Shown here in pieces: positions 1-12,107 of a stretch of 21,183 nucleotides of DNA. Source of the stretch: a virus; the IMG/VR virus record IMGVR_UViG_3300046517_000971, positions 1 through 21,183 of that record; one strand, given 5' to 3'. The position numbers were made by a program, and so were the translations under genes. The notes beneath the pieces are model-generated. The model saw only the letters and a program-made list of their open reading frames with translations, was not told where the DNA came from and ran no database searches. Positions within the stretch are counted from its first letter, which is position 1. The number at the start of each line of letters is the position of its first letter.

Positions 1-3000
1 AACCGGCTGCCAAAATGGCTCACCGGCAACATCTTGTATCTTCTCAAGTTTTGGCTTCCATTCTCGGAAAGCCCCATGGCCCTCAATCGTAAAGCTGCCT
101 TCGACGCCCGCAGCCTTGGCAAGATCTCTGAGATTGTTGACCATCTCCTTGTAAACCGCGGCCTTTGCAAGCCGTGCCGTGGCAAGCGGCAAGGCCCGGA
201 TGGTACGGGCAATCTGCACCTGTGACGTAGCGGCCTCTATCTCAGACGCACTGGCACCGGCTTCCTTCATGCGCTGCTCGACCAATCGCTTGCCTGCCGC
301 CTCGGTCTCCTCCGCGGTCAGATAGCCGCGATGCAGCATCTGCGATGTCTTGGTAAACACATCACGGCCAAGCGCATTCAAGGCGCGTGGCGACACGCTC
401 CCGCTTTCATTTGCCAGAGCTATGTTCAGCATCATGCGCGGTGCATAAGACGGCAGTCCGTCGCCTTTGACCATTTCGACATCAAGAGCATGTGCCCAGG
501 CCGCTTTCGAATCTTCCATGAGATATTCGACCATGGCGCGCTCAGCAGGCTCAAGCGTAGCAAGACCCATGTGCGGGCTCATCCTGCCTTCCTGCTCCAT
601 CACGCTTTGCTCGTCGACCCGATCCCACTGCACTTTCTGTGACTCGGCATCGAATCGCCGTACAATTTCCCTGTCGACTCGCAGATGATTGTAGTCAATG
701 CGGGCCACTGCATTCATGGCATCCTTGGTGATCCGCATTGCATCACGATGCAGATTATCCCTGGTACCAAAATTGGTCGCCATGGGATCTAGCCCACCGT
801 GAAGATTGTTCGCAATGCTGTACAATTTGCTCATCGCCTCGCGCCCGGCCGCCACCACGCTCCCTGGCGGCGGCGGAGGCTCCTCGGCCAGGCTTGGCGT
901 CGGCATGTCACGTGTCACGTCGGCACCGAGCGATCCGGGCTTGGGCTCCCGTGCCAATATCTCCTTCGCCTGTGCAATCTCGAGCTTGGTCGGGCCGGGC
1001 TCGGCCAGCGGCTCGCCCTTGGCGGCACGGACATCGTCGTGCGGGTATGGGTCTACATAAAGGTTCGGCGGTGGATTGAATGGCTCAGTCTCACGAATAA
1101 TACCCGAATCGAGAACTGCAGTTTGTCTGTGCGGACCATGTCGCGTGCCAGGTTCCTCGATATTGTCGATATAAAGAACGTCGTGACCCTCGGCACGCGC
1201 CCTCTCGATCTCGCGTGTCATGTCCTTTTCGTCGTACCAGCCTTCAAGCCCCTTTTTCTTGGTGCTCGCAGAAATGCCTTCGCGCTTCGTCCAATCAATG
1301 GTTTTTGGATTCTTTGCATCGACATTGACCGGTGTTGTAATGTCACCATAATCACGAGCCAGTGCCTCTGATGGGGCAAGAAATACCGCACGCTCGCTCT
1401 TGCCCTTACCCATTTTTGACAATTGATTTATGTCGAATAGTTCAGTCGTGCCGATGAAATGCCCGCCTTGCCGATGCTGTATCGCATCAATATACGGCCT
1501 GTACGCCTCTTCCGCCTTGGCCTGGTCTATTCCGTGCGCCCGGTACCAGGCGCCCTCAGCCTTCTCGGCAAACTCGAAATGCGCGACCTTGTAGGCCGTC
1601 TGCTTGTCCATGCCGCCCTTGATCAGCACTTCCATGACGTGCTGCTCGACGTTCTCATGGATCGTGAACGGCTCGGCCGGGTCGAACCGCACGCCGTCCA
1701 CTTCCATCATGCGCGGGAAATGCCGGTCGATGTACATGGTCGGATCGTGCAACGGGACGGAACCGCCGGCACTGTATGGCACGTCATACTGATCGTTGAT
1801 GACCGGCTCGTCGATGTTCCGTTTCGTCACCGGATCGTTCAGGATGGCATCAATGTGCGGCTCGCCGGTGCGGGCGAGCTCGGAACGTGGCGTACCCTGT
1901 GGCATCGGTGTGTTCTGGACCGGGACAGTCTTGGTGGGCTTGAACGGCACGCCGTTCTTTTCAGTGATCTGCAGGAGCTTGTCATCGAAGATCACGAAGT
2001 TGCTAGTCGGCTCTCCCCCAACGATCTCATCGCGGATATATTTAATTGAGTTCTGTAACTGTGTATCGTCTGGTCGTTCAAGCAACAGTCCTTCTAGTCT
2101 GGCTAGTTCCTGCTTAGCTTCGTTACGACTACGTTTTGGACGCGAGCCTGCATCAAGATACTTAATGCCCGGAATGCCCGCATCGCGCATCATGTCGGCC
2201 GCACTGATCTCATCGAAATCATACTTGGCAAACTGTCTATAGAAGTCATCGAATTGTAATGACGGCACTTCCTTGGCTGTCGCACCTGCACCCTTCAGGG
2301 CATCCAATGTTTTCTGGATTGCCTTGTTCTGATCACCCAGCAGGCCATCAAGCATCAGCCCGGACTGGGCATTCTTATTTTCTGCCTTGATGGCATCCCT
2401 CAACCGCTCGAATGCCTGCAAGACGAACGGGCTTTGCTCGTGAAGCGGCTTGAACCAATCGATCATATGCTCGCGATCGGCAAGAATGCGGACGCGGTAA
2501 GAGATGCCTCTTAGTGGATTTGGAGTATCTCCCATTTCCAGCATTTCGGCGGCGCGATTGTAATGCTCTGCATTAAATTCTCTATTTACTTTCGACAAGC
2601 CTTTTTCTTCTAGGTTTTCCTTTTCCTTTCTACGAAGATACGCAATGGCGTCTTCACGGGTTGGCTGTGTTTCAAGTGCATGACGAGCAAAAACAGTAGG
2701 TGTATTATTGGTATCGGAACTAGAAAATTCCTTCAGATACTCCGCATGAACATCTGCCGACTCGGAAATGTAAATACCGCGTCCGAAAACCTGCGCGCCC
2801 TGCCCGGTCCCGATTTTGGACGAATCGAACTCACTAAACTCATGTGGCGATGCGTGCCACCCATCCACTGACGGCAGCGCCACCTCATGTCGCAGAAACG
2901 AATCATTCTGCGCGTCATGCACCACCTCGGCCGGGTGAATGCCACGCTCGTCCCACAGCTCACGCAGGTTCTTCTCGACAAGGGATGGGGCGGCGCGGGG

Positions 3001-3726
3001 CCATGGCCACTTCCCAGCATTTCCTGGACCGCTCGGGCCGCCAGGCCCCATAGTTGGAAATGGCTCGTCATATCCTGGCGCATTTGGGTAACGTGGCTCA
3101 GCTAGAACATCCGCCCCGGCCTTGAAGTCGCCCTGCGTGGGCAACTCCCCGATATGTTGCACCCGTGGCGTGCCGTCACGGTCGGTAATGACGCGCGAGA
3201 TGCTTGCCGCCTCACCCGGCTTGGGAATGCCGGTCGGGTGCGGACTGCCCATGAGTGCATCGGGTATGTGTGCAACGTCCGGCGGCACACCAAACCCGAC
3301 AGACGCCTCTTGCGCGCCCGTGAACATGGCATTTATTCCACGGAACAAAACCGCCCCGTACTTGAACTGCTGAGCAAGGTACGCATAGGCCGCCGATCCG
3401 CCCGGTCCCAATCCAAGGGCCTTGATCTGCTGTATTTGCTCGTCTGACAGTCCGATTTCTTCTTCCCCAAAGCCGGTCTTGAAACCCTCGACAAACCTCT
3501 TGCCGACGCCCTCCGCCATCCGCATCTCAGGCGAAGACGCCATAGCGGTCTCGGGATCGACCTTGCCACGCTCCCACAGGTCGGACAGGCGCTGCTTGAA
3601 ACCCTTCATATTGAGCGGCTCGGGTGCCGCCTGTTGCTGTCCAACCGGTTGCCAATCATCAGCCTCCGCTGCCTGCTTGCCTTGACCAACCGGCTGCCAG
3701 TCGTCCTGCGTGTCTGTGTTGGCCAT
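1..3726 (-). CDS. Polyvalent internal virion protein with ART-like domains (3' end outside window)
   Basis: A giant frame starts at ATG 3726 (one base shared with the previous TAA) and stays open to the left edge: 1242 codons visible, C-terminus missing. It occupies the T7 gp16 position, the large protein ejected with the DNA. Seen in order: a repeated DDWQPVGQ near 8-30; an ADP-ribosyltransferase (ART)-like domain at ~287-590 with 'WHASPHEFSEFD' (His291), 'KIGTGQGAQVFGRGIYI' (Tyr319), 'GIKYLDAGSR' (~519-528) and a closing 'NFVIFDDKL'; a second ART-like segment at ~754-880 ('GHFIGTTELFDI', 'KNPKTIDW', 'ARAEGHDVLYIDNI', 'AVLDSGIIRE'); a Pro-rich linker near 945; and a long helical region to the window edge with 'GDGLPSYAPRMM'. 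The first domain matches the ART type known from phage polyvalent (DarB-like) proteins. Activity is inferred. Confidence 0.8.
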   Translation of the reverse strand, partial: MANTDTQDDWQPVGQGKQAAEADDWQPVGQQQAAPEPLNMKGFKQRLSDLWERGKVDPETAMASSPEMRMAEGVGKRFVEGFKTGFGEEEIGLSDEQIQQIKALGLGPGGSAAYAYLAQQFKYGAVLFRGINAMFTGAQEASVGFGVPPDVAHIPDALMGSPHPTGIPKPGEAASISRVITDRDGTPRVQHIGELPTQGDFKAGADVLAEPRYPNAPGYDEPFPTMGPGGPSGPGNAGKWPWPRAAPSLVEKNLRELWDERGIHPAEVVHDAQNDSFLRHEVALPSVDGWHASPHEFSEFDSSKIGTGQGAQVFGRGIYISESADVHAEYLKEFSSSDTNNTPTVFARHALETQPTREDAIAYLRRKEKENLEEKGLSKVNREFNAEHYNRAAEMLEMGDTPNPLRGISYRVRILADREHMIDWFKPLHEQSPFVLQAFERLRDAIKAENKNAQSGLMLDGLLGDQNKAIQKTLDALKGAGATAKEVPSLQFDDFYRQFAKYDFDEISAADMMRDAGIPGIKYLDAGSRPKRSRNEAKQELARLEGLLLERPDDTQLQNSIKYIRDEIVGGEPTSNFVIFDDKLLQITEKNGVPFKPTKTVPVQNTPMPQGTPRSELARTGEPHIDAILNDPVTKRNIDEPVINDQYDVPYSAGGSVPLHDPTMYIDRHFPRMMEVDGVRFDPAEPFTIHENVEQHVMEVLIKGGMDKQTAYKVAHFEFAEKAEGAWYRAHGIDQAKAEEAYRPYIDAIQHRQGGHFIGTTELFDINQLSKMGKGKSERAVFLAPSEALARDYGDITTPVNVDAKNPKTIDWTKREGISASTKKKGLEGWYDEKDMTREIERARAEGHDVLYIDNIEEPGTRHGPHRQTAVLDSGIIRETEPFNPPPNLYVDPYPHDDVRAAKGEPLAEPGPTKLEIAQAKEILAREPKPGSLGADVTRDMPTPSLAEEPPPPPGSVVAAGREAMSKLYSIANNLHGGLDPMATNFGTRDNLHRDAMRITKDAMNAVARIDYNHLRVDREIVRRFDAESQKVQWDRVDEQSVMEQEGRMSPHMGLATLEPAERAMVEYLMEDSKAAWAHALDVEMVKGDGLPSYAPRMMLNIALANESGSVSPRALNALGRDVFTKTSQMLHRGYLTAEETEAAGKRLVEQRMKEAGASASEIEAATSQVQIARTIRALPLATARLAKAAVYKEMVNNLRDLAKAAGVEGSFTIEGHGAFREWKPKLEKIQDVAGEPFWQPV

Positions 3727-5426
3727 TATTTCTTTCCAAGCTTCTTGCCGTCCGTATCGTAAATATCGCCATCTGGACTGCGATATTGCTGACGGCTCGG
3801 ACTGAATTGCCAATCACCTGGCGGCCTGAAAGCACCCTTGAACCGCTCATCAAAGACCGGCTGCTTCAGTCCAGAACCTGACTGAGGTGCTGCCGGCGGC
3901 GCAACTTTTTCTGCCGGCATGACCGATGGTCGGTTCTTTTGCTGGATTGCCTGATCACGCAGTCTCTGCTGCATAGGAGGCTGAGCGTACTGCAACATAT
4001 TTTCGGCCTTGCCGAAGTAATCCGGCGATGCCGGATTGTAGGCCTCCTGCGGATTCTTACCGGCCTTGCGCAGTTCGTTTTCCTTCAGCTCTGCCGCAAC
4101 CCTGGCACGGGATTCCCGGTCAAGACCTTCCGGGGTCCGATAGATCGGATCTGGATCAATAACCGCCGACCATTGCTTGAAGAACCGTTCCCTCGACTGC
4201 AGCAGCGTCTGACCGGCATCGGTCTTCACCGTCCTGAACTCATTGCGAAGCCTATTCAAGTCAGAAACGGTCAGCTTGTCGACATGCTCGTATATCTGAT
4301 TGACGTCGGTTATCGTGCCATCGGCAATTTTCTTGGTCAGGTCCATGTATGTTGGACGCGACTCCTTGGCCGGCGGATCGGCCTTGTTCATTCGATTGGT
4401 CAAGGTCCGCAACTGGTTTTCCATGGCCCGAAGGGCACCGGCTCTCTGGGCGGCACCTTCAGGATTGTCCCTGAGAATCTGCTTCAATCGCTGGAAATGC
4501 TCGGGACCGACGACGATCTTCCCGTTCTCGTCTGTCGTCGACACGGCAAGATCGTTCATGTCTCGGTCGAACTGATCCCTCGATATCCGGTTTTGAGCCG
4601 CAACCACCGCCTTGGATTGGCTGTCATTCACCCTCTTGTAGTTGGCCGCGGCTTGCTGAAACTGCTTCAGTTCACCTGGTTTGATATACTGGGAGTACTT
4701 TGGATCATTGGCAAAATCCGGTATCTCGCCGGTCTTCTCGATATGACCGAGCGCTGCCGACTTGACGATTTCCTCATTGCCTTGCTGCATCATGATGGTC
4801 TTGAGCCTGTCGGCCTTGGCGCCCTTCAGGCTCGGATGCGACACCATGCCATCGATCGATGTCTCATAAGTTTTGAGTGCGACATCAAGGCTGGTAGGAT
4901 CATTGCGGACCGCATTCGACAGCGTGTTCGTAGTCTGCCGTAGATTGACATCAGCGGCATCGGCCGCCTTCGATGCCATGTCGGCACCGGTCTTCCTGAA
5001 GAAGTGATTGCGTAGCTGATCCGTATAATTCTCGGCCCACTGCTGGCTTTTCTCGGTAGTGAAGCCTTGCTTGAACTGCTCAAGCGATGGCTCGAGCTTT
5101 TCTTCGATCCACTTCTTGTCAACACCCGGCTCGTTCGGGTCTTTCATATTATTGATAGTCTGATTCCAGTCTTCATCCAGGCCGCTGAGCATGTTGGCGC
5201 CATGCACAGCACCAGCGGACTTTTCCGCATGGTCTTTGTAATCAACATACGCGTCACCGGCGAGCTTGCCGGCATGTGCGATAGCCTGTCCGCCTGATGC
5301 AATGGACGAGCCGGCTTCGTTGTATTCGGCACCGACACGGCGAGCCGCTGCGGCCACCGCCGTAACGCCGGTCTCAGTCGGGCGCAAGTTGAGCGCCGGT
5401 GTATTATACTCTGCTATTTTCGGCAT
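3726..5426 (-). CDS. Internal virion protein, gp15-like
   Basis: A 566-residue, almost entirely helical, charged protein in the position of T7 gp15, an ejected core protein that lines the periplasmic conduit. It has no signal peptide and no membrane segment. An early Ala/Gly-rich part (residues ~21-65) precedes long helices ('EKLEPSLEQFKQGFTTEKSQQW' region, ~109-130). The Pro-rich C-terminus ends in a short aromatic motif ('GDWQFSPSRQQYRSPDGD', ~538-555). T7 gp15 is 747 residues, so this one is shorter. The ATG at 5426 is preceded by TGAGGA, in which TGA is the previous stop. Its own TAA overlaps the next ATG (TAATG). Assignment rests on order, size and composition. Confidence 0.72.
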   Translation of the reverse strand: MPKIAEYNTPALNLRPTETGVTAVAAAARRVGAEYNEAGSSIASGGQAIAHAGKLAGDAYVDYKDHAEKSAGAVHGANMLSGLDEDWNQTINNMKDPNEPGVDKKWIEEKLEPSLEQFKQGFTTEKSQQWAENYTDQLRNHFFRKTGADMASKAADAADVNLRQTTNTLSNAVRNDPTSLDVALKTYETSIDGMVSHPSLKGAKADRLKTIMMQQGNEEIVKSAALGHIEKTGEIPDFANDPKYSQYIKPGELKQFQQAAANYKRVNDSQSKAVVAAQNRISRDQFDRDMNDLAVSTTDENGKIVVGPEHFQRLKQILRDNPEGAAQRAGALRAMENQLRTLTNRMNKADPPAKESRPTYMDLTKKIADGTITDVNQIYEHVDKLTVSDLNRLRNEFRTVKTDAGQTLLQSRERFFKQWSAVIDPDPIYRTPEGLDRESRARVAAELKENELRKAGKNPQEAYNPASPDYFGKAENMLQYAQPPMQQRLRDQAIQQKNRPSVMPAEKVAPPAAPQSGSGLKQPVFDERFKGAFRPPGDWQFSPSRQQYRSPDGDIYDTDGKKLGKK

Positions 5427-5435
5427 CAGATGTCC

Positions 5436-5912
5436 TCAAAAGACGGCAGCAACGCTGATCGCGGCGCCCACAAACTTTCCAACCGCACCCCAAGTGTCGG
5501 CCTTGGCGGCTTCGCGCGAGGCTGCCGCCATCAAATCATAAGACTGTGCCTGCTCCTCATAGCCGGCTTCCTCGATCAGTCCTTGCTGGCTGATCACGGA
5601 TTTGGTCAGCGATGCTTGCGAGGCACTCTCGCGCAGGATGTCAAGCGCAGAACCGGTCGCCGCGAAGCCGGACGCCCCAATTTCAGCTTCTTGGCCGCCA
5701 ATCTGTTTGTAGGAATCACGCTGTTGTTGAAATTCCTTAATGTCGGTCGATTCTTTAGTGTACTGCTCATTCAGCCGTGCCAATGCGGCGGCCTTGTCAT
5801 AGGCTTGCGCCTCGAGCCGCGAGCCCTTTGCCTTGTAGAGCGAACCAATGCCGCCAAAGATATCACTTACCGCATTACTGGCGGCGCCGACTGAGCTGCT
5901 GCTGATCGCCAT
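5436..5912 (-). CDS. Internal virion protein, gp14-like
   Basis: A 158-residue helical protein in the position of the smallest ejected internal core protein (T7 gp14). It is Ala/Gln/Glu-rich with an N-terminal Gly/Ala/Ser segment, a central 'QQQRDSYKQIGGQEAEIGASGFAATGSALDILRESA' block (split: IGGQEAEIGASGFAATG near 71-87) and a hydrophobic C-terminus (GAVGKFVGAAISVAAVF) fit for membrane insertion. The 'G.....G.SG.....S.LD' signature is typical of this protein. T7 gp14 is 196 residues and forms the outer-membrane part of the DNA-ejection conduit. The ATG follows the nozzle stop by 2 nt. Confidence 0.8.
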   Translation of the reverse strand: MAISSSSVGAASNAVSDIFGGIGSLYKAKGSRLEAQAYDKAAALARLNEQYTKESTDIKEFQQQRDSYKQIGGQEAEIGASGFAATGSALDILRESASQASLTKSVISQQGLIEEAGYEEQAQSYDLMAAASREAAKADTWGAVGKFVGAAISVAAVF

Positions 5913-5914
5913 GA

Positions 5915-8900
5915 TTACGCATCCTGTGTTTGCAAGTGCCCACCGATTGCAGCAATGTTGGCCGGATACGGCCGTATAATGCGCCAGCAGAGCATGGCAT
6001 CGAAGGAATTAGGATCGATGAGATTATCGCGATGGATGCCGGTGAACTGCTCGTTGACGGCCAACGCTCTGCCATTTTCGGCCTTGAACAACATCGGCTG
6101 CAGCTTGGAAAAGTCAGTTCCAGCGAAGATGCCGCTCGCCACCGCACCCTCGATTTGAACGGTGTAGTACTGATTACGCCGCAGCTTGCCGAATGCCGGC
6201 CCGCTACGAGCACCCGATTCCGCAGGCGCATTTGGTCGCACGATCTGACCGTCACTGGTGAAGGTGAAGCCGACCAGCATCTGCGACAAGGTGAGCGTGG
6301 AGGCGAATGCCGCGGTAAACAAGCCATTTGCCGTCCCGACATTTATGCCGTCGCCATACGGGACCGTAATTTGCCCGTTCGCCACCAAATAGTCGCCGCA
6401 GTCGAGCCCGCCCAACCAAGCCGTCACGGTCTCGCCGTTGAGCGGCCAGAGACCGTAGAGCGTCAGCCCACCGAATGGCGCCGGCGTAACCGAGCTGCTC
6501 GACACTGCATCGGGTGTAATGGCATCGTCAAGATAAGCTGCCTGCGACAGTGCTGCACCCTCATCCAGGATGTCGCTCATTCCCTCGATGTGCCGGATTC
6601 CCGTCGCTGCATCATTCGTCACCAGGCTGAGCGCATCGAGCGTACCACCGGCCGACGACCCGGACGAGATGAACTCGACGGTACGGCCGGAACCGAGTGT
6701 ATGCCTGTGCCAGCCGCGCATTTCTGCCGGCTGCGACGACACGAGTGTCTTGCGTCGATAGGTGATGCCAACCAATGCCCCGTCATCGCGCCGCAACCAG
6801 ATGATGGGCGTCAGCTCGTGCTGGAACGCAATCTCGGCAATGTTGCCATTGGTCAGGTGCTTGGCATGCTCGGCAAGATTATCCGCCGCAAACTTGCCGG
6901 AATAGACATCATGGAAGAATTCGAGCAGCGAGCGCCGGAATGCCTGCACGACCGCAAGCGTAAGGCCGGTGCGGCGCGGCTCAATATTGGCGCACTTGTG
7001 CGCGGTGGCGCGATGCGCCTGGATCGATGTCGGCGTGAGCGGATTGTTGAGCGATGACGCCTGCACCAGCCATTCACCAGCACCGGTACCGCACACAATG
7101 CCGAGCTGGTCCGGTTCCATCCACAGAATCGTGTTCACGTCCGCCGAGTTAAATGTATACGAAATGGCATTGCTATCAGCCACCGTGCCGTCAGGCGCAG
7201 TCGGCGCAAAATTGAAGATGTCATTGCTCTTGCTGCCGTCGAACCTGTTGCCGACCAGGCCGGCAAGCCATAGTCGGCCCTCGTGATAGGTACCGCAGGT
7301 CGGCCAGCCGGTCGTATTGGAATAGAGCCCAAGCCTCCAATTGCGGATCGATATGGTGTAAAGCAACGGATCACCAAGGATTTGAACATTGACGCCACTC
7401 GATGTGCCAGTACCTGGCGGATTGAAGAACTGCAGCTCGCAGTCCGCCATCGTACTGCTGAGAAGGATGGCGCCGGCTCCAAGAACAATCGAAAACGTCG
7501 TCTGCACCCAGACGTAATTCCAGGTCGTCACCTTGTTATTCGATGTGATCGTAATTGGAGTAAAATCGAGTCCTGGATCAATGGGGCCACCACCAGGCGG
7601 TGCTACAATCGAGAAGCTGGTGCTGCCGAGTAGCGTACCATCCGCCGAATTCACCGGCGCCGTTGCCTTGGCACGCAGGTTGAGCGTGACCATAACACTC
7701 CAGCCATTGAGGCCAAAGTCGAGGATAGATGGAAAGAAGAACCCCGCATCGGTTGATGGCCACACAGTGCAGGAATCGATCGCCTGCGCCGATGCCCCGC
7801 TGTAGTTCTTGCCAACATAACCGGTACCGGACGTAACACCTCCAGCAAATTGCTCCAAAGCGCTATGAGCGCTGTCTTGTGAGAAATTGCCATCAAAGGC
7901 ATTGGCCAAGCCACCAACAGCAAGGACCATATCTCCAATATTGACCGAGCCAGCAAGCGAACGACTAATCTCATTCGTCAATGACGTGATCTTGCCCCAA
8001 GTCCAAATCGCCGCAGTCGGCATCAATGACCATGCCGTCACCACTGTTCCAGGAGGATTTCCACTGTTACCGTTCGCCAGCGAGCGCCAGTAGGTGCCAG
8101 CATAAGCGACAACATCGCCAAGCGCATAAACCGTAGGAACCTGCCAAAGTGATGGTTCGGAATAAAGACGCACCATACGGCCAATATCCGTACCAACAAA
8201 TCCGTTTGGCCCGATTGCCTCACCGGCTGAGACAGCAACCCAATTAGCCGGACTACCGGCCGGTACGTTGCCCTGATTGCCATCAGTAAGAGAACGATAG
8301 TTGATTGCTACACTGGTAACAAAATCTCCGATCGAATAGGCCCGCGCCACATCGAAAGCCGCGAACGACAAGGTCAGTCCAATAATGCCGTTCACGGCTG
8401 ATGGCGTTGCTTGTACGCCATTGGTAAACACATCAAGGTAAGGACCATCCTTGAAACTAGCGGCAGCAAGTGTAAATGTCGCAAAGTTGTTACCGCTTGG
8501 TGCAGTCGCCACTTTAAGTACGTAAGGGATTACGCCAGAATTGAGAATGACCGCGCCCGGTGTCGTGCCCTGTTGAATCGGAATATCGGCTCTAATGACA
8601 CGCAACGTGATCCATGATCCGGTGATGTACGGCGATGTAATTTCCAACACGCGCGTGACGTTGCCGGACACGAAGGCGCCGAGCGTCGAACCGTCGATAT
8701 TGGCGCCCGTCACCGCATCTGCGATGGTGAACTCGGTTGCCGACGTGACCGTGATCTTGAATGGCCGGTTGTGCAGCAGCGGATTGTTGACGCCAAGCGC
8801 ATTGAAATAGACGGTGTTGCCGGTCGTCCAGCCATGTGCCAGCGTGGTGGCGACCTTGGCGGGATTGGCGGCCGATATCGATACAATGGCCTGCTGATCA

Positions 8901-9196
8901 TTCGTCATCGCCAACGAGTTGCCGGCGAAGAACCGCAAGAAACCATCCGTGAATTCGATGTCGTAAGGTGCGGTCTGCTTGAAGTCGAATCGCTGTGTAC
9001 GGGCCGGCGCACCACCGCGCGAGACAGCCTTGATGTGCGTGCCGGGCCGTCGCACCCACGCGCCGGTCTCGAGCGGGAGGCCGTTCAGGCAGACCGTCAT
9101 CAGACTGCGATAGTCCTGACGATCGTATCTTCCTTGAGCGAGTTTGCTTACCTCACCGCCAATGAACGTGGGCTGCACGTATGACGCATCAGCCAT
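5915..9196 (-). CDS. Tail tubular protein B / nozzle (gp12-like), multidomain
   Basis: A 1093-residue distal tail nozzle protein. The N-terminus 'SYVQPTFIGGEVSKLAQGRYD' with 'YRSLMTVCLNGLPLETGAWVRRPGT' is the TTPB hallmark. So is the later block 'GTYHEGRLWLAGL', 'LWMEPDQLGIVCGTGAGEW' (about 650-720). Residues ~104-186 ('LAHGWTTGNTVYFNALG...FTIADAVTGA') look like an FCCH-type domain as annotated in many phage nozzle proteins. Residues ~281-322 and ~350-392 are two modules of the same CBM-like type as in TTPA. Residues ~425-600, with 'AFDGNFSQDSAHSA' and 'GYVGKNYSGAS', resemble a jelly-roll or F5/8-type ligand module. The protein is longer than the usual ~800 residues because of these insertions. 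The start ATG at 9196 lies 2 nt after the previous stop with a weak SD. Confidence 0.88.
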   Translation of the reverse strand: MADASYVQPTFIGGEVSKLAQGRYDRQDYRSLMTVCLNGLPLETGAWVRRPGTHIKAVSRGGAPARTQRFDFKQTAPYDIEFTDGFLRFFAGNSLAMTNDQQAIVSISAANPAKVATTLAHGWTTGNTVYFNALGVNNPLLHNRPFKITVTSATEFTIADAVTGANIDGSTLGAFVSGNVTRVLEITSPYITGSWITLRVIRADIPIQQGTTPGAVILNSGVIPYVLKVATAPSGNNFATFTLAAASFKDGPYLDVFTNGVQATPSAVNGIIGLTLSFAAFDVARAYSIGDFVTSVAINYRSLTDGNQGNVPAGSPANWVAVSAGEAIGPNGFVGTDIGRMVRLYSEPSLWQVPTVYALGDVVAYAGTYWRSLANGNSGNPPGTVVTAWSLMPTAAIWTWGKITSLTNEISRSLAGSVNIGDMVLAVGGLANAFDGNFSQDSAHSALEQFAGGVTSGTGYVGKNYSGASAQAIDSCTVWPSTDAGFFFPSILDFGLNGWSVMVTLNLRAKATAPVNSADGTLLGSTSFSIVAPPGGGPIDPGLDFTPITITSNNKVTTWNYVWVQTTFSIVLGAGAILLSSTMADCELQFFNPPGTGTSSGVNVQILGDPLLYTISIRNWRLGLYSNTTGWPTCGTYHEGRLWLAGLVGNRFDGSKSNDIFNFAPTAPDGTVADSNAISYTFNSADVNTILWMEPDQLGIVCGTGAGEWLVQASSLNNPLTPTSIQAHRATAHKCANIEPRRTGLTLAVVQAFRRSLLEFFHDVYSGKFAADNLAEHAKHLTNGNIAEIAFQHELTPIIWLRRDDGALVGITYRRKTLVSSQPAEMRGWHRHTLGSGRTVEFISSGSSAGGTLDALSLVTNDAATGIRHIEGMSDILDEGAALSQAAYLDDAITPDAVSSSSVTPAPFGGLTLYGLWPLNGETVTAWLGGLDCGDYLVANGQITVPYGDGINVGTANGLFTAAFASTLTLSQMLVGFTFTSDGQIVRPNAPAESGARSGPAFGKLRRNQYYTVQIEGAVASGIFAGTDFSKLQPMLFKAENGRALAVNEQFTGIHRDNLIDPNSFDAMLCWRIIRPYPANIAAIGGHLQTQDA
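8021..8356 (-). repeat. Two CBM-like modules in TTPB
   Basis: 'AYSIGDFVTSVAINYRSLTDG' cut at 20: AYSIGDFV ... YRSLTDGNQGNVP ... NW and YALGDVV ... YWRSLANGNSGNPP ... AW. Both match the module seen five times in TTPA, so the same unit has been placed in both tail-tube proteins. Confidence 0.7.
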
Positions 9197-9198
9197 GG

Positions 9199-10854
9199 CT
9201 ATAGCCTACAAGTCACGTAATCATCTTCAGGCGGTTCTTCGGCTCCCGTCTCGATTCCGTTCACAGTTCGTGCTTCTGTCATTACTGTACTATAAACCTT
9301 AGCAATAACACCCAACTTCGCACTCGACTGCGTGAGCGGCTCACACACTTCCAACCCAATACGTGCGCCCAACCCCTCACAGAACATCGGGTCCATGGTC
9401 GACACGTCGGTCACGTCCGCGACGAACCGGTACATGATCGGATCGGAATCACGGGTGACGATGAAAACGCTTTCCAGGTTCCAGTCCGTATAGGCGAGAC
9501 CTGACGGGGCACCCAGGAACGAAGCTGATCCAGCCTTCGGATCACGCGGTGCCTCACGCAGGAAGCCGGCCGGCAGCCGATAGACGTTCTTGGTCGACAA
9601 TTGCGACGACGGACCGGATCCGACCGGATAGGTCGTGCTGAACGCCGTCAGACCGACACCGCTTGGAAACGACGAGCCGCCGATCTGCGTCCACTCATCA
9701 TTGCCGCCGCCTTGCACGAACACCGTATCCCATGGCGACAGCGTTCCGGTATTGGTCCAGAACGCCGGTGAGAAGGTCGGATCGTGATTGAGGTTTCCAC
9801 CCGCGATCGAGGAATAGATCACGCCGTCCGAGCCGGTAGCGGTCGCAGCCGCACCATAAGTCGTGCCACTCGACCACTCGGCCACGAACGTAGTGGTCGG
9901 ATTGTTGCCGAGATTCAAATCTGTCAGGCTCATGTAGAACGTGCCGAGCGTGAGCGGCTTCCAGAATGTCGAAGCTGCCGCGTTCGGGAAATTGCCGGTG
10001 TTGTTGGCAAGGATCGACAGATACTCGATGCCACCGAACATCACGAAACTGCCGAGCGCATAGGTCGTGCTCTGCACCCACTCGTTGACGGGCGAAGACA
10101 GCGGCGGCACCAGCGTGCTGGTCGACGGCACGGACTGCGACTGCAGGATCAGCGTCGGCACGAGCTGCCAGAACGTCGCGCTCGTGGCCGGCGAATGGCC
10201 AATATTGCCGTTCTGCAGCGACGAATAGATCAGCCCGTCACTGTTCAGAACGGTCTGGCCCTGCGTATAGGTCGTACCACCAGCCCATGCCGGGAATACC
10301 CGCACTACCTGGTTCTTGAAATAGATGGTCGAAATCGACCACTCGTTCGGCAACGCCGGGTGGACCGCATTGCCGCTGACGAGCGACAGATAGGTATTGT
10401 AGGTACCGTTGCCGAGCAGCAGATAGACGACCTCACCCGAGAAGTAAGTTGTGCTGCCGTCGTACCGGCTGACCGTCAATGGGCCGAAATACGGCTCCCA
10501 GGCAAAGGCTGACAATTCCGGCTGCAGACCAAGATTGTCGCGGATCTTGGAGATCCAGAGATATCCGGTCTGGTCACTGACCACCGAACCCATGAAATAG
10601 GTGGTGAACGAGCTCCACAGCGATGGCACGAGCATCAGCGTGTTGGAGTCGATCGGCCGCAGAATGGCCTTGCGGATGGCAAATCGCCAGACATTGCGGC
10701 GCAGCTCAGCTTGCCGCAGCTTGTCATACACGAACGCCGTCCGTGTCGCCCGCTGGCTATTCTCGGCAAAGCCCTGGATGGGATCGAGCAAGGGTTGACC
10801 GCAATGGTCAAGAGCCCGATTGGCGATGTCGGTCGCGATCAGGAATGCGCTCAT
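9199..10854 (-). CDS. Tail tubular protein A (gp11-like) with inserted CBM-like modules
   Basis: This is the adaptor between portal and nozzle in a short-tailed virion. The N-terminus 'IANRALDHCGQPL' plus 'RTAFVYDKLRQAELRRNVWRFA' (residues 9-58) and the C-terminal part with 'YRLPAGFLREAPRDPK', 'YRFVADV' and the 'CEGLGARIGLEVCEPLTQS' helices (about 425-540) are the TTPA fold. The usual protein is about 200 residues; here it is 551 because residues ~79-366 contain five complete modules of ~42 residues, each with W-x4-TTYxxG....V, Y-x-S, a GN-x-G/N-x-P-like turn and a C-terminal FW or EW. The modules start near 79, 131, 189, 258 and 326, and half modules lie near 172 and 303. They resemble chitin/carbohydrate-binding modules of the CBM5/12 type. 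The ATG at 10854 is the only reasonable start and lacks a clear SD. Confidence 0.88.
   Translation of the reverse strand: MSAFLIATDIANRALDHCGQPLLDPIQGFAENSQRATRTAFVYDKLRQAELRRNVWRFAIRKAILRPIDSNTLMLVPSLWSSFTTYFMGSVVSDQTGYLWISKIRDNLGLQPELSAFAWEPYFGPLTVSRYDGSTTYFSGEVVYLLLGNGTYNTYLSLVSGNAVHPALPNEWSISTIYFKNQVVRVFPAWAGGTTYTQGQTVLNSDGLIYSSLQNGNIGHSPATSATFWQLVPTLILQSQSVPSTSTLVPPLSSPVNEWVQSTTYALGSFVMFGGIEYLSILANNTGNFPNAAASTFWKPLTLGTFYMSLTDLNLGNNPTTTFVAEWSSGTTYGAAATATGSDGVIYSSIAGGNLNHDPTFSPAFWTNTGTLSPWDTVFVQGGGNDEWTQIGGSSFPSGVGLTAFSTTYPVGSGPSSQLSTKNVYRLPAGFLREAPRDPKAGSASFLGAPSGLAYTDWNLESVFIVTRDSDPIMYRFVADVTDVSTMDPMFCEGLGARIGLEVCEPLTQSSAKLGVIAKVYSTVMTEARTVNGIETGAEEPPEDDYVTCRL
9757..10620 (-). repeat. 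Five inserted CBM5/12-like modules in TTPA
   Basis: The repeats share the order W-x(3,4)-T-T-Y, G-x-x-V, 'Y-x-S(L/I)', G-N-x-x-(H/N)-x-P and an end with F-W or E-W. The clearest are 'AWAGGTTYTQGQTV', 'EWVQSTTYALGSFV' and 'EWSSGTTYGAAATAT'. Carbohydrate binding is a family-level inference. The repeat itself is read directly from the translation. Confidence 0.75.
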
Positions 10855-10892: not shown

Positions 10893-12107
10893 CTAGCGGT
10901 TCATCAGGCTGCCCACATTGGCTATGAACGGATAGGTGAAATCGACCGGCACGACCGGTGGCGGCAATGGTGCATCACCAGGTGGGTGCTGCAGCCACGA
11001 CATCAGCACGGTCGGATAGGGCGGGTTATACGGCGATCTGAAATCAAAGTTCATGGGCGGCGGCCGTACCGGCGCCGGCTGGAACTGAGCCTGGAAACCA
11101 GTAACCCAGGTCCGTAGCCCAACCGGATATTCAGGCCCCTGCGGCACCGGATAGCTGTAATTCGGCGGCGGCTTAGCGAACCGGATGGCATCGTTGATCC
11201 AGGTCCGCAATCTGACCGGATATTCGACATCATAGGCCAGCCGGTAATCGTAGCAAAACGGCGGCGCCGGCGAGATCGGCAGCGCCACGTTGACGAAGGT
11301 TCGCAGCCCAATCGGATAATCAGGCCCTTTCGGGACCGGATAGTCGTAGCAAAGCGGTGGGACCAGCAAGACCGGTGTCTTGACGGCCGCATTGAACCAG
11401 GTCCGCAGAGCAGTCGGATACTCGACCGTGCGCGGGACCGGATAGTCGTAATTGAATGGTGGTGGAGTTACGACAACCGGTGTCTGAACGGCCGCATTGA
11501 CCCACGTTCGCAGACTGTTCGGATATTCGACGGTGCGCGGCAAGCTCCAATCAAAGCCAAGCGGCGGCATCGACGGTGCCGACTGGAACTGCACCACCTG
11601 ATTGACCAGGGTGCGCAGACTGACCGGATATTCAGTCTCGCGCGGCAGCGGGTAATTGTAGTTGAACGGCGGAATTGGCGAGATCGGCAACGACACGTTG
11701 ACGAACGTGCGCAACGCCGTGGGATACTCGATCGTTCTAGCTGGCGACGTGTCGTAATAGCTGATCGGTGGCCGCGGTGAGATGGGCAACGAAACGTTGA
11801 CCCAGGTCCGCAATTGCACCGGATAGTCGACCTGACGCGCAAGCGAGAAATCAATGTTAGAAATCGGCTTGACCACAGCCGCCGCAAACATCGGCGTCTG
11901 TATCCACGTCCGCATCGCGGTGGGATATTCGACGGTGCGTGGAACCGGGTATTCGACAGGCCGGACCGGATTGACGACAGCCGGCGTGGCATAGAGCGCG
12001 GCATTGTAAGGGATATTCGTATCAATGAGATACGACGGCCCCTGCAGCCGCATGAAGATAGGCGACCGCGTAACGAGATTGGAGAGCTGGGTTAGAAGAA
12101 GCGACAC
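10893..12107 (-). CDS. YPxxLRTW tandem-repeat protein
   Basis: A 404-residue protein, nearly all of it about ten tandem copies of a 31-37-residue unit from residue ~56 to ~385. Each unit has a core '(E/D)YPxxLRT(W/F)' followed by a short hydrophobic stretch, a Pro-rich linker and an aromatic 'YDYPVPR'-type end. Cores occur at residues 60, 94, 127, 159, 194, 229, 263, 295, 326 and 363; the last copy is degenerate (PYPTVLMSW). No membrane segment, signal peptide or catalytic motif is visible. The start is GTG at 12107, preceded by GGGAGAG. It lies directly before the TTPA gene, so it may be a virion or tail component, perhaps an elongated or solenoid-like protein. I have an unverified impression of similar repeats in hypothetical proteins of other uncultured phages, and I do not assign a function. 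Confidence 0.85.
   Translation of the reverse strand: MSLLLTQLSNLVTRSPIFMRLQGPSYLIDTNIPYNAALYATPAVVNPVRPVEYPVPRTVEYPTAMRTWIQTPMFAAAVVKPISNIDFSLARQVDYPVQLRTWVNVSLPISPRPPISYYDTSPARTIEYPTALRTFVNVSLPISPIPPFNYNYPLPRETEYPVSLRTLVNQVVQFQSAPSMPPLGFDWSLPRTVEYPNSLRTWVNAAVQTPVVVTPPPFNYDYPVPRTVEYPTALRTWFNAAVKTPVLLVPPLCYDYPVPKGPDYPIGLRTFVNVALPISPAPPFCYDYRLAYDVEYPVRLRTWINDAIRFAKPPPNYSYPVPQGPEYPVGLRTWVTGFQAQFQPAPVRPPPMNFDFRSPYNPPYPTVLMSWLQHPPGDAPLPPPVVPVDFTYPFIANVGSLMNR
10955..11954 (-). repeat. Coding tandem repeats, ~93-111 bp period, about 10 units
   Basis: DNA encoding the YPxxLRTW units of the 404-residue protein. The successive core spacings are 34, 33, 32, 35, 35, 34, 32, 31 and 37 codons. Copies are clearly diverged at the DNA level. 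A subset shares nearly the same block, for example three copies around the 'NVxLPISP' linker. The array is in frame throughout, which fits old in-frame duplications followed by divergence rather than recent slippage. Confidence 0.85.

Follow-up and report, generated by a model that had tools for sequence, protein, structure and literature searches.

Background

ADP-ribosyltransferase (ART) domains of the ART-PolyVal type are known from phage polyvalent proteins (Iyer et al. 2017, PMC5512222; PF18760). These proteins are predicted to be delivered with the DNA, their ARTs have an active site of His, Tyr and Asp, several ARTs can share one protein, and GNAT and ART domains can occur together. Two other described systems are relevant to the present locus: the T7 gp16-type ejection proteins (PMC8954989) and T4 Alt, a head-packaged ADP-ribosyltransferase. 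According to a survey from 2022, just about 3% of podoviruses carry ARTs (PMC9503650).

Here we describe P0001, a protein encoded at the gp16 position of a short-tailed phage. In our judgement it is fairly likely to be an ejection protein, built as a conserved frame that carries cargo at fixed places, with an intact ART and an ART-like domain lacking His and Tyr as its cargo in this phage. This reading draws on profile identity, residue conservation, presence and absence of modules and divergent base composition; packaging, ejection, activity and targets are inferred.

Genomic context of the gp16-position gene

The window, meaning the whole stretch of DNA analysed, is a short-tailed phage contig from a metagenome and comprises the entire record of 21,183 bases. 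P0001 is encoded by a single long minus-strand ORF (positions 1-3726), running from an ATG at 3726 off the end of the contig, which cuts its 3' end and leaves 1242 residues visible. Upstream lie a 566-aa gp15-position protein (3726-5426, minus strand), a gp14-like internal virion protein (5436-5912, minus strand; phrog_418, E 6e-10), two tail proteins (phrog_376 and phrog_394) and, farther off, the major head protein. As this gene order is that of a T7-like short-tailed phage, the label gp16-position is fair, and the first-pass annotation, which had placed the protein there, was right to do so. The relatives L002-L004 and the phage Caudoviricetes sp. vir555 (BK063671.1) share the gene order. 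In vir555 the 1974-aa protein after phrog_418 also carries an ART of the type described below; unlike P0001, it has no visible HENVE frame and a different body (phrog_9880).

P0001 thus resembles the T7 gp16-type proteins in following gp14-like and gp15-position genes. Unlike T7 gp16 it has no detected transglycosylase domain, and the C-terminal body encoded in the window is not detectably gp16. Neither the cut C-terminus of P0001 nor that of L130 gave a PHROG match, gp16 C-terminal homology being found in the relative L013 only, hence we call the protein gp16-position and not gp16.

All motifs quoted by the first-pass annotation are present, but on the minus strand: WHASPHEF (residues 290-297), FGRGIYI (314-320), YLDAGSR (523-529) and NFVIFDD (576-582) in a first segment, and GHFIGTTELF (755-764) and SGIIRE (874-879) in a second. 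The whole protein matched PF18760 (ART-PolyVal) with 34.9 bits, above the cut-off of 31.2, and comparison with a library of defence proteins gave no match.

Elsewhere in the window, the tail proteins at 5915-9196 and 9199-10854 (minus strand) both match phrog_14646 and phrog_6278 and show a weak likeness to carbohydrate-binding module 5/12. A 404-aa protein at 10893-12107 (minus strand) is made of repeated units like RTVEYPTALRTWVN; it has no PHROG match, and no tandem repeat was detected in its DNA.

Segment 1 is an ART-PolyVal-type domain

Segment 1 (residues 287-599; 1930-2868, minus strand) occupies what we call site B. Taken alone it reached 18.9 bits against PF18760 (E 0.0027), under the cut-off of 31.2. 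Against a profile of its own family, residues 284-598 scored 229.9 bits; it should be noted that the window's own sequence is among the 67 rows of this profile. When viral contigs were scanned with four relatives, the family came to at least 588 confirmed relatives, and PF18760 was matched above cut-off in 17 of the 50 records searched, which comprised family members and controls.

His291, Tyr319, Tyr330, Tyr523, Asp525, Ser528, Arg529 and Asn576 are identical in all 67 family rows. The invariance of Tyr523 and Asp525 is partly ascertained, as both fall within one search pattern, while His291, Tyr319 and Asn576 lie outside it. His291 is moreover kept in 79 of 79 relatives inspected, which had been selected without requiring His. 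The published ART-PolyVal active site consists of His, Tyr and Asp (PMC5512222), for which H291, Y319 and, probably, D525 are the counterparts here. In the family these residues are placed in strands 1, 2 and 5, respectively. In the AlphaFold2 model of segment 1 (pLDDT 86.3, pTM 0.74) strands bear His291, Tyr319 and Asn576, with D525 after the fourth strand and N576 in the fifth.

A Foldseek search of this model against BFVD returned 22 predicted viral proteins at E < 0.001, several of them named ART-PolyVal, and the ART-PolyVal matches ranged from E 2e-12 to 7e-5 at a probability of 1.0. The BFVD targets are themselves predicted models, and their likeness to segment 1 is partly one of sequence. 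Against solved structures (PDB) the model gave no fold match. Judged by profile and predicted model together, segment 1 can certainly be assigned to the ART-PolyVal type. The one clear ART domain of the first-pass annotation is borne out by the family-profile score and by the resemblance to predicted phage ART-PolyVal proteins, and the His and Tyr, proposed there as the residues to follow across homologues, are retained in 79 of 79 and 67 of 67 sequences.

The same annotation regarded a charged insert of about 50 residues after YLDAGSR as unusual. The insert (residues 530-574; 2005-2139, minus strand) is 45 residues long. In relatives where the motif search could measure it, the distance from YLDxxSR to the next strand is either 7-17 or 39-70 residues, which puts P0001 in the long class. 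Compared in this way, the insert is a regular length variant within the family and is ordinary rather than unusual. In L002, the nearest relative, the insert at this place is unrelated to that of P0001, though the surrounding domain is closely similar. The gene is most AT-rich in the charged insert (GC3 0.39 over residues 531-574) and in a variable helical stretch within segment 1 (residues 331-405; 2512-2736, minus strand; GC3 0.31).

Segment 2 is ART-like but without the catalytic His and Tyr

Segment 2 (residues 753-880; 1087-1470, minus strand) lies at site D. Alone it matched PF18760 with 24.0 bits (E 7.1e-5), under the cut-off of 31.2, so we name it ART-PolyVal-like only. In Pfam the domain first described as probable thus outscores the one described as clear (24.0 against 18.9 bits).

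L046 and L051 supplied the best partners found for segment 2, in each case their second ART; both are themselves PF18760 matches with Trp at the Tyr position, and a scan with these two returned only themselves. Aligned with them, segment 2 has Ile758 in place of His, Phe782 in place of Tyr, and Gln868 on the last strand. This alignment is weak (hhalign probability 3.7%), so the residue assignments depend chiefly on the match to Pfam, which begins one position after the His column. Modelled alone, segment 2 was predicted with a pLDDT of 49.5 and gave no meaningful fold match.

No relatives of segment 2 were found in viral contigs. Nothing convincing came from phages (best E 5e-3) or plasmids, and a match in Rhizobium phage B1VFA looked spurious by eye. 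A scan, run without a positive control, of 297 genomes from the order of the Xanthobacteraceae MAG discussed below likewise gave no convincing relative. Searches of solved structures returned nothing by sequence, and nothing by fold for either segment. Direct homology between the segments was considered and rejected, as the segment 1 profile scored segment 2 at -1.9 bits and hhalign gave a probability of 7.5%; from these comparisons, segments 1 and 2 appear related at most through PF18760.

Hence the second ART-like domain of the first-pass annotation stands as a profile match, while its active-site His and Tyr do not. In segment 1 the BFVD matches speak for an ART fold, and H, Y and D are conserved; segment 2 has I758 and F782. 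From the residues assigned, we take segment 2 to be an ART-like domain that is probably dead or altered in catalysis.

The annotation had further suggested two host targets as one option, a reading in which both ARTs of the ejected protein would be active. Both segments do match PF18760, and multi-ART polyvalent proteins are known (PMC5512222) and recur among the records we fetched. With Ile and Phe standing where segment 2 should have its His and Tyr, two host targets do not follow, and we consider two active ARTs quite improbable.

A conserved frame with modules at fixed places

Between the two segments lies a conserved domain, here called HENVE (residues 612-752; 1471-1893, minus strand). 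Ten other viral contigs and one genome contig carry it at 52-95% identity, these relatives having been collected by searching with the HENVE region itself. Only the region around this domain is common to all relatives. The domain is HExxExH-like and belongs to no Pfam family; it is possibly a metal-binding enzyme, and distant short or solo homologues occur in Hyphomicrobiales genomes (L136-L139).

The spacing of landmarks is nearly constant across the relatives except at module positions. HENVE and IDQ lie 42 residues apart in the window, and so they do in all relatives covering this stretch except L003 (122). From IDQ to PYPH there are 28-29 residues in all relatives against 157 in the window, where segment 2 lies between, and segment 2 is absent from all ten relatives that extend through site D. 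The distance from GIHPAE to VPY is 83-84 residues without a domain at site B (L012, L014), and 388-391 (window, L002) or 228 (L003) with one; the landmark spacing thus leaves site B empty in L004/L012, L130 and L014. Altogether L004/L012, L013, L014, L016, L130, L131 and L132/L134 are frame orthologues without either ART.

Three further sites vary. Site A (2995-3096, minus strand) is short in the window and holds AT-rich segments of 87-105 residues in L002 and L003 (GC3 0.33-0.50 against 0.65-0.86 for the frame). Site C, near residues 705/706 (1610-1612, minus strand), is empty in the window and filled by a module of about 80 residues in L003. Site E (residues ~925-955; 862-954, minus strand) has no module in the window and is filled in L003, L014 and L132. 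In L003 site B is occupied by an ART-like segment of another kind, site C by an unknown module and site E by a GNAT-like domain (E 0.003); the site B segment and the site C module, the latter ART-like by eye, have no profile support. Site E of L014 holds a Zeta_toxin-family kinase (51 bits) and a ParB-like stretch recognised by eye. L132 and L134 are 94.6% identical in DNA over 3609 aligned bases; L134 has two adjoining gaps, together 372 bases, at site E, and L132 thus has about 125 extra residues, a module of unknown kind. Hence P0001 appears to be a frame for delivery whose cargo can be exchanged, as close relatives lack both ARTs or carry other enzymes at these places. As in polyvalent proteins, several disparate domains share one polypeptide: two ART-like domains and HENVE in P0001, to which relatives add a GNAT-like domain or a zeta kinase.

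Two observations by the side concern module placement. A stretch resembling the L132 module was seen by eye in L133, upstream of the HENVE domain. In L014 (8122-14697) the stretch behind the zeta-kinase region, still inside the ejection-position protein, matches phrog_10691 (221 bits) and phrog_21, 'portal protein' (113 bits).

At its N-terminus P0001 carries a tandem motif, DDWQPVG...DDWQPVG (residues 8-29; 3640-3705, minus strand), and none of 300 shuffles scored as high. L002, L003, L004, L014, L016, L130, L131, L132 and L134 each have a tandem motif of their own, mostly spaced by 11-16 residues, in forms such as SDxDVFG, PPFDPxKPF, SDEWPGT and WSxDPTP. The motif differs between near relatives yet stays duplicated; L013 is without it and L133 is borderline. 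Perhaps it acts as a docking or packaging signal.

Base composition of the modules

Third-position GC in the window is 0.52 in the modules and 0.68 in the rest, and at fourfold sites the values are 0.51 and 0.68 (Fisher p 7e-5). In a circular-shift control, which keeps local correlation, the observed GC difference was reached in 20 of 1241 shifts. The trend is the same in L002, L003 and L132 (0.33-0.53 in modules against 0.65-0.86), and the kinase region of L014 is not AT-rich. The AT-richer modules would fit acquisition from elsewhere.

The ART segments might be passengers, that is, insertions that are neutral or decaying and now serve no function, as the loss of active-site residues in segment 2 and the differing modules of near relatives could suggest. 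We regard this as very unlikely, as segment 1 retains every residue invariant in its 67 relatives and the reading frame is intact.

C-terminal bodies, proposed delivery and likely host

The cut C-terminal body of P0001 (residues 960-1242; 1-849, minus strand) is collinear with L130 and L014, and no PHROG match was found for this body type. The C-terminus of L013 is gp16-type and matches, at 259 bits, phrog_342 (internal virion protein with endolysin domain); that of L132 matches phrog_6651, also an internal virion protein. One N-terminal frame thus precedes three kinds of C-terminal body (L013, L132, L130), and two of these are of internal virion protein types. As hhalign detected no relation among the three, nor between the body of P0001 and those of L013 or L132, the part in common is the N-terminal half. 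From its gene position and the internal-virion-protein C-termini of its relatives, it is plausible that P0001 is delivered with the DNA. The only genome contig with a close frame belongs to a Xanthobacteraceae MAG, which indirectly points to Alphaproteobacteria as the likely hosts.

We propose that the frame comprises the tandem N-terminal motif, the HENVE domain and the C-terminal body, and that P0001 would be packed in the head and ejected together with the DNA. At entry, segment 1 would spend host NAD+ to ADP-ribosylate at least one host protein, and segment 2, as a non-catalytic or altered relative, may bind the target, NAD+ or the ADP-ribosylated product. Little NAD+ is expected in the periplasm. 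The T7 model assigns the N-terminal part of gp16 to the periplasm (PMC8954989), and as the cargo of P0001 is N-terminal, it would need another topology or cleavage to reach the cytoplasm.

This topology problem, along with the late structural position of the gene, speaks for ARTs that act in the producing cell or the virion instead of at entry, e.g. on the phage's own ejection proteins or against superinfecting phages. However, the cargo is absent from orthologues and hence not needed for virion assembly, and T4 Alt is a precedent for a head-packaged ART acting on the host (PMC5512222). We find action in the producing cell or virion unlikely and prefer action at entry. Our working model, in which an ART delivered with the DNA would modify host proteins, follows T4 Alt in this respect; unlike segment 1, which is of H-Y-D type, T4 Alt falls in the R-S-E clade (PMC5512222) and outside the ejection-channel gene position.

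Implications

An ART in a phage protein predicted to be injected, and several ARTs per protein, are already known, and exchangeable cargo in gp16-position orthologues is a variant of the polyvalent-protein theme. P0001 differs from the described polyvalent proteins in that its cargo is held at set positions of a gp16-position frame whose orthologues include naturally empty ones, and in that its second ART-like domain is without His and Tyr. More tentatively, and with somewhat more doubt than confidence, we suggest that the gp16-position protein is a general delivery frame in a family of short-tailed phages, probably of Alphaproteobacteria, in which host-modifying domains (ART, GNAT, zeta-type kinase and unknown modules) recombine at several dedicated cargo sites faster than the frame diverges.

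For ART-bearing polyvalent proteins injection has been predicted, yet they are usually compared with very different proteins. If the suggestion is true, ejected effectors become comparable between near-identical phages. Near relatives that differ by whole modules, together with the natural empty versions, would form matched pairs for the effect of an ejected domain on the host, and such pairs may also bear on whether N-terminal cargo gets to the cytoplasm.
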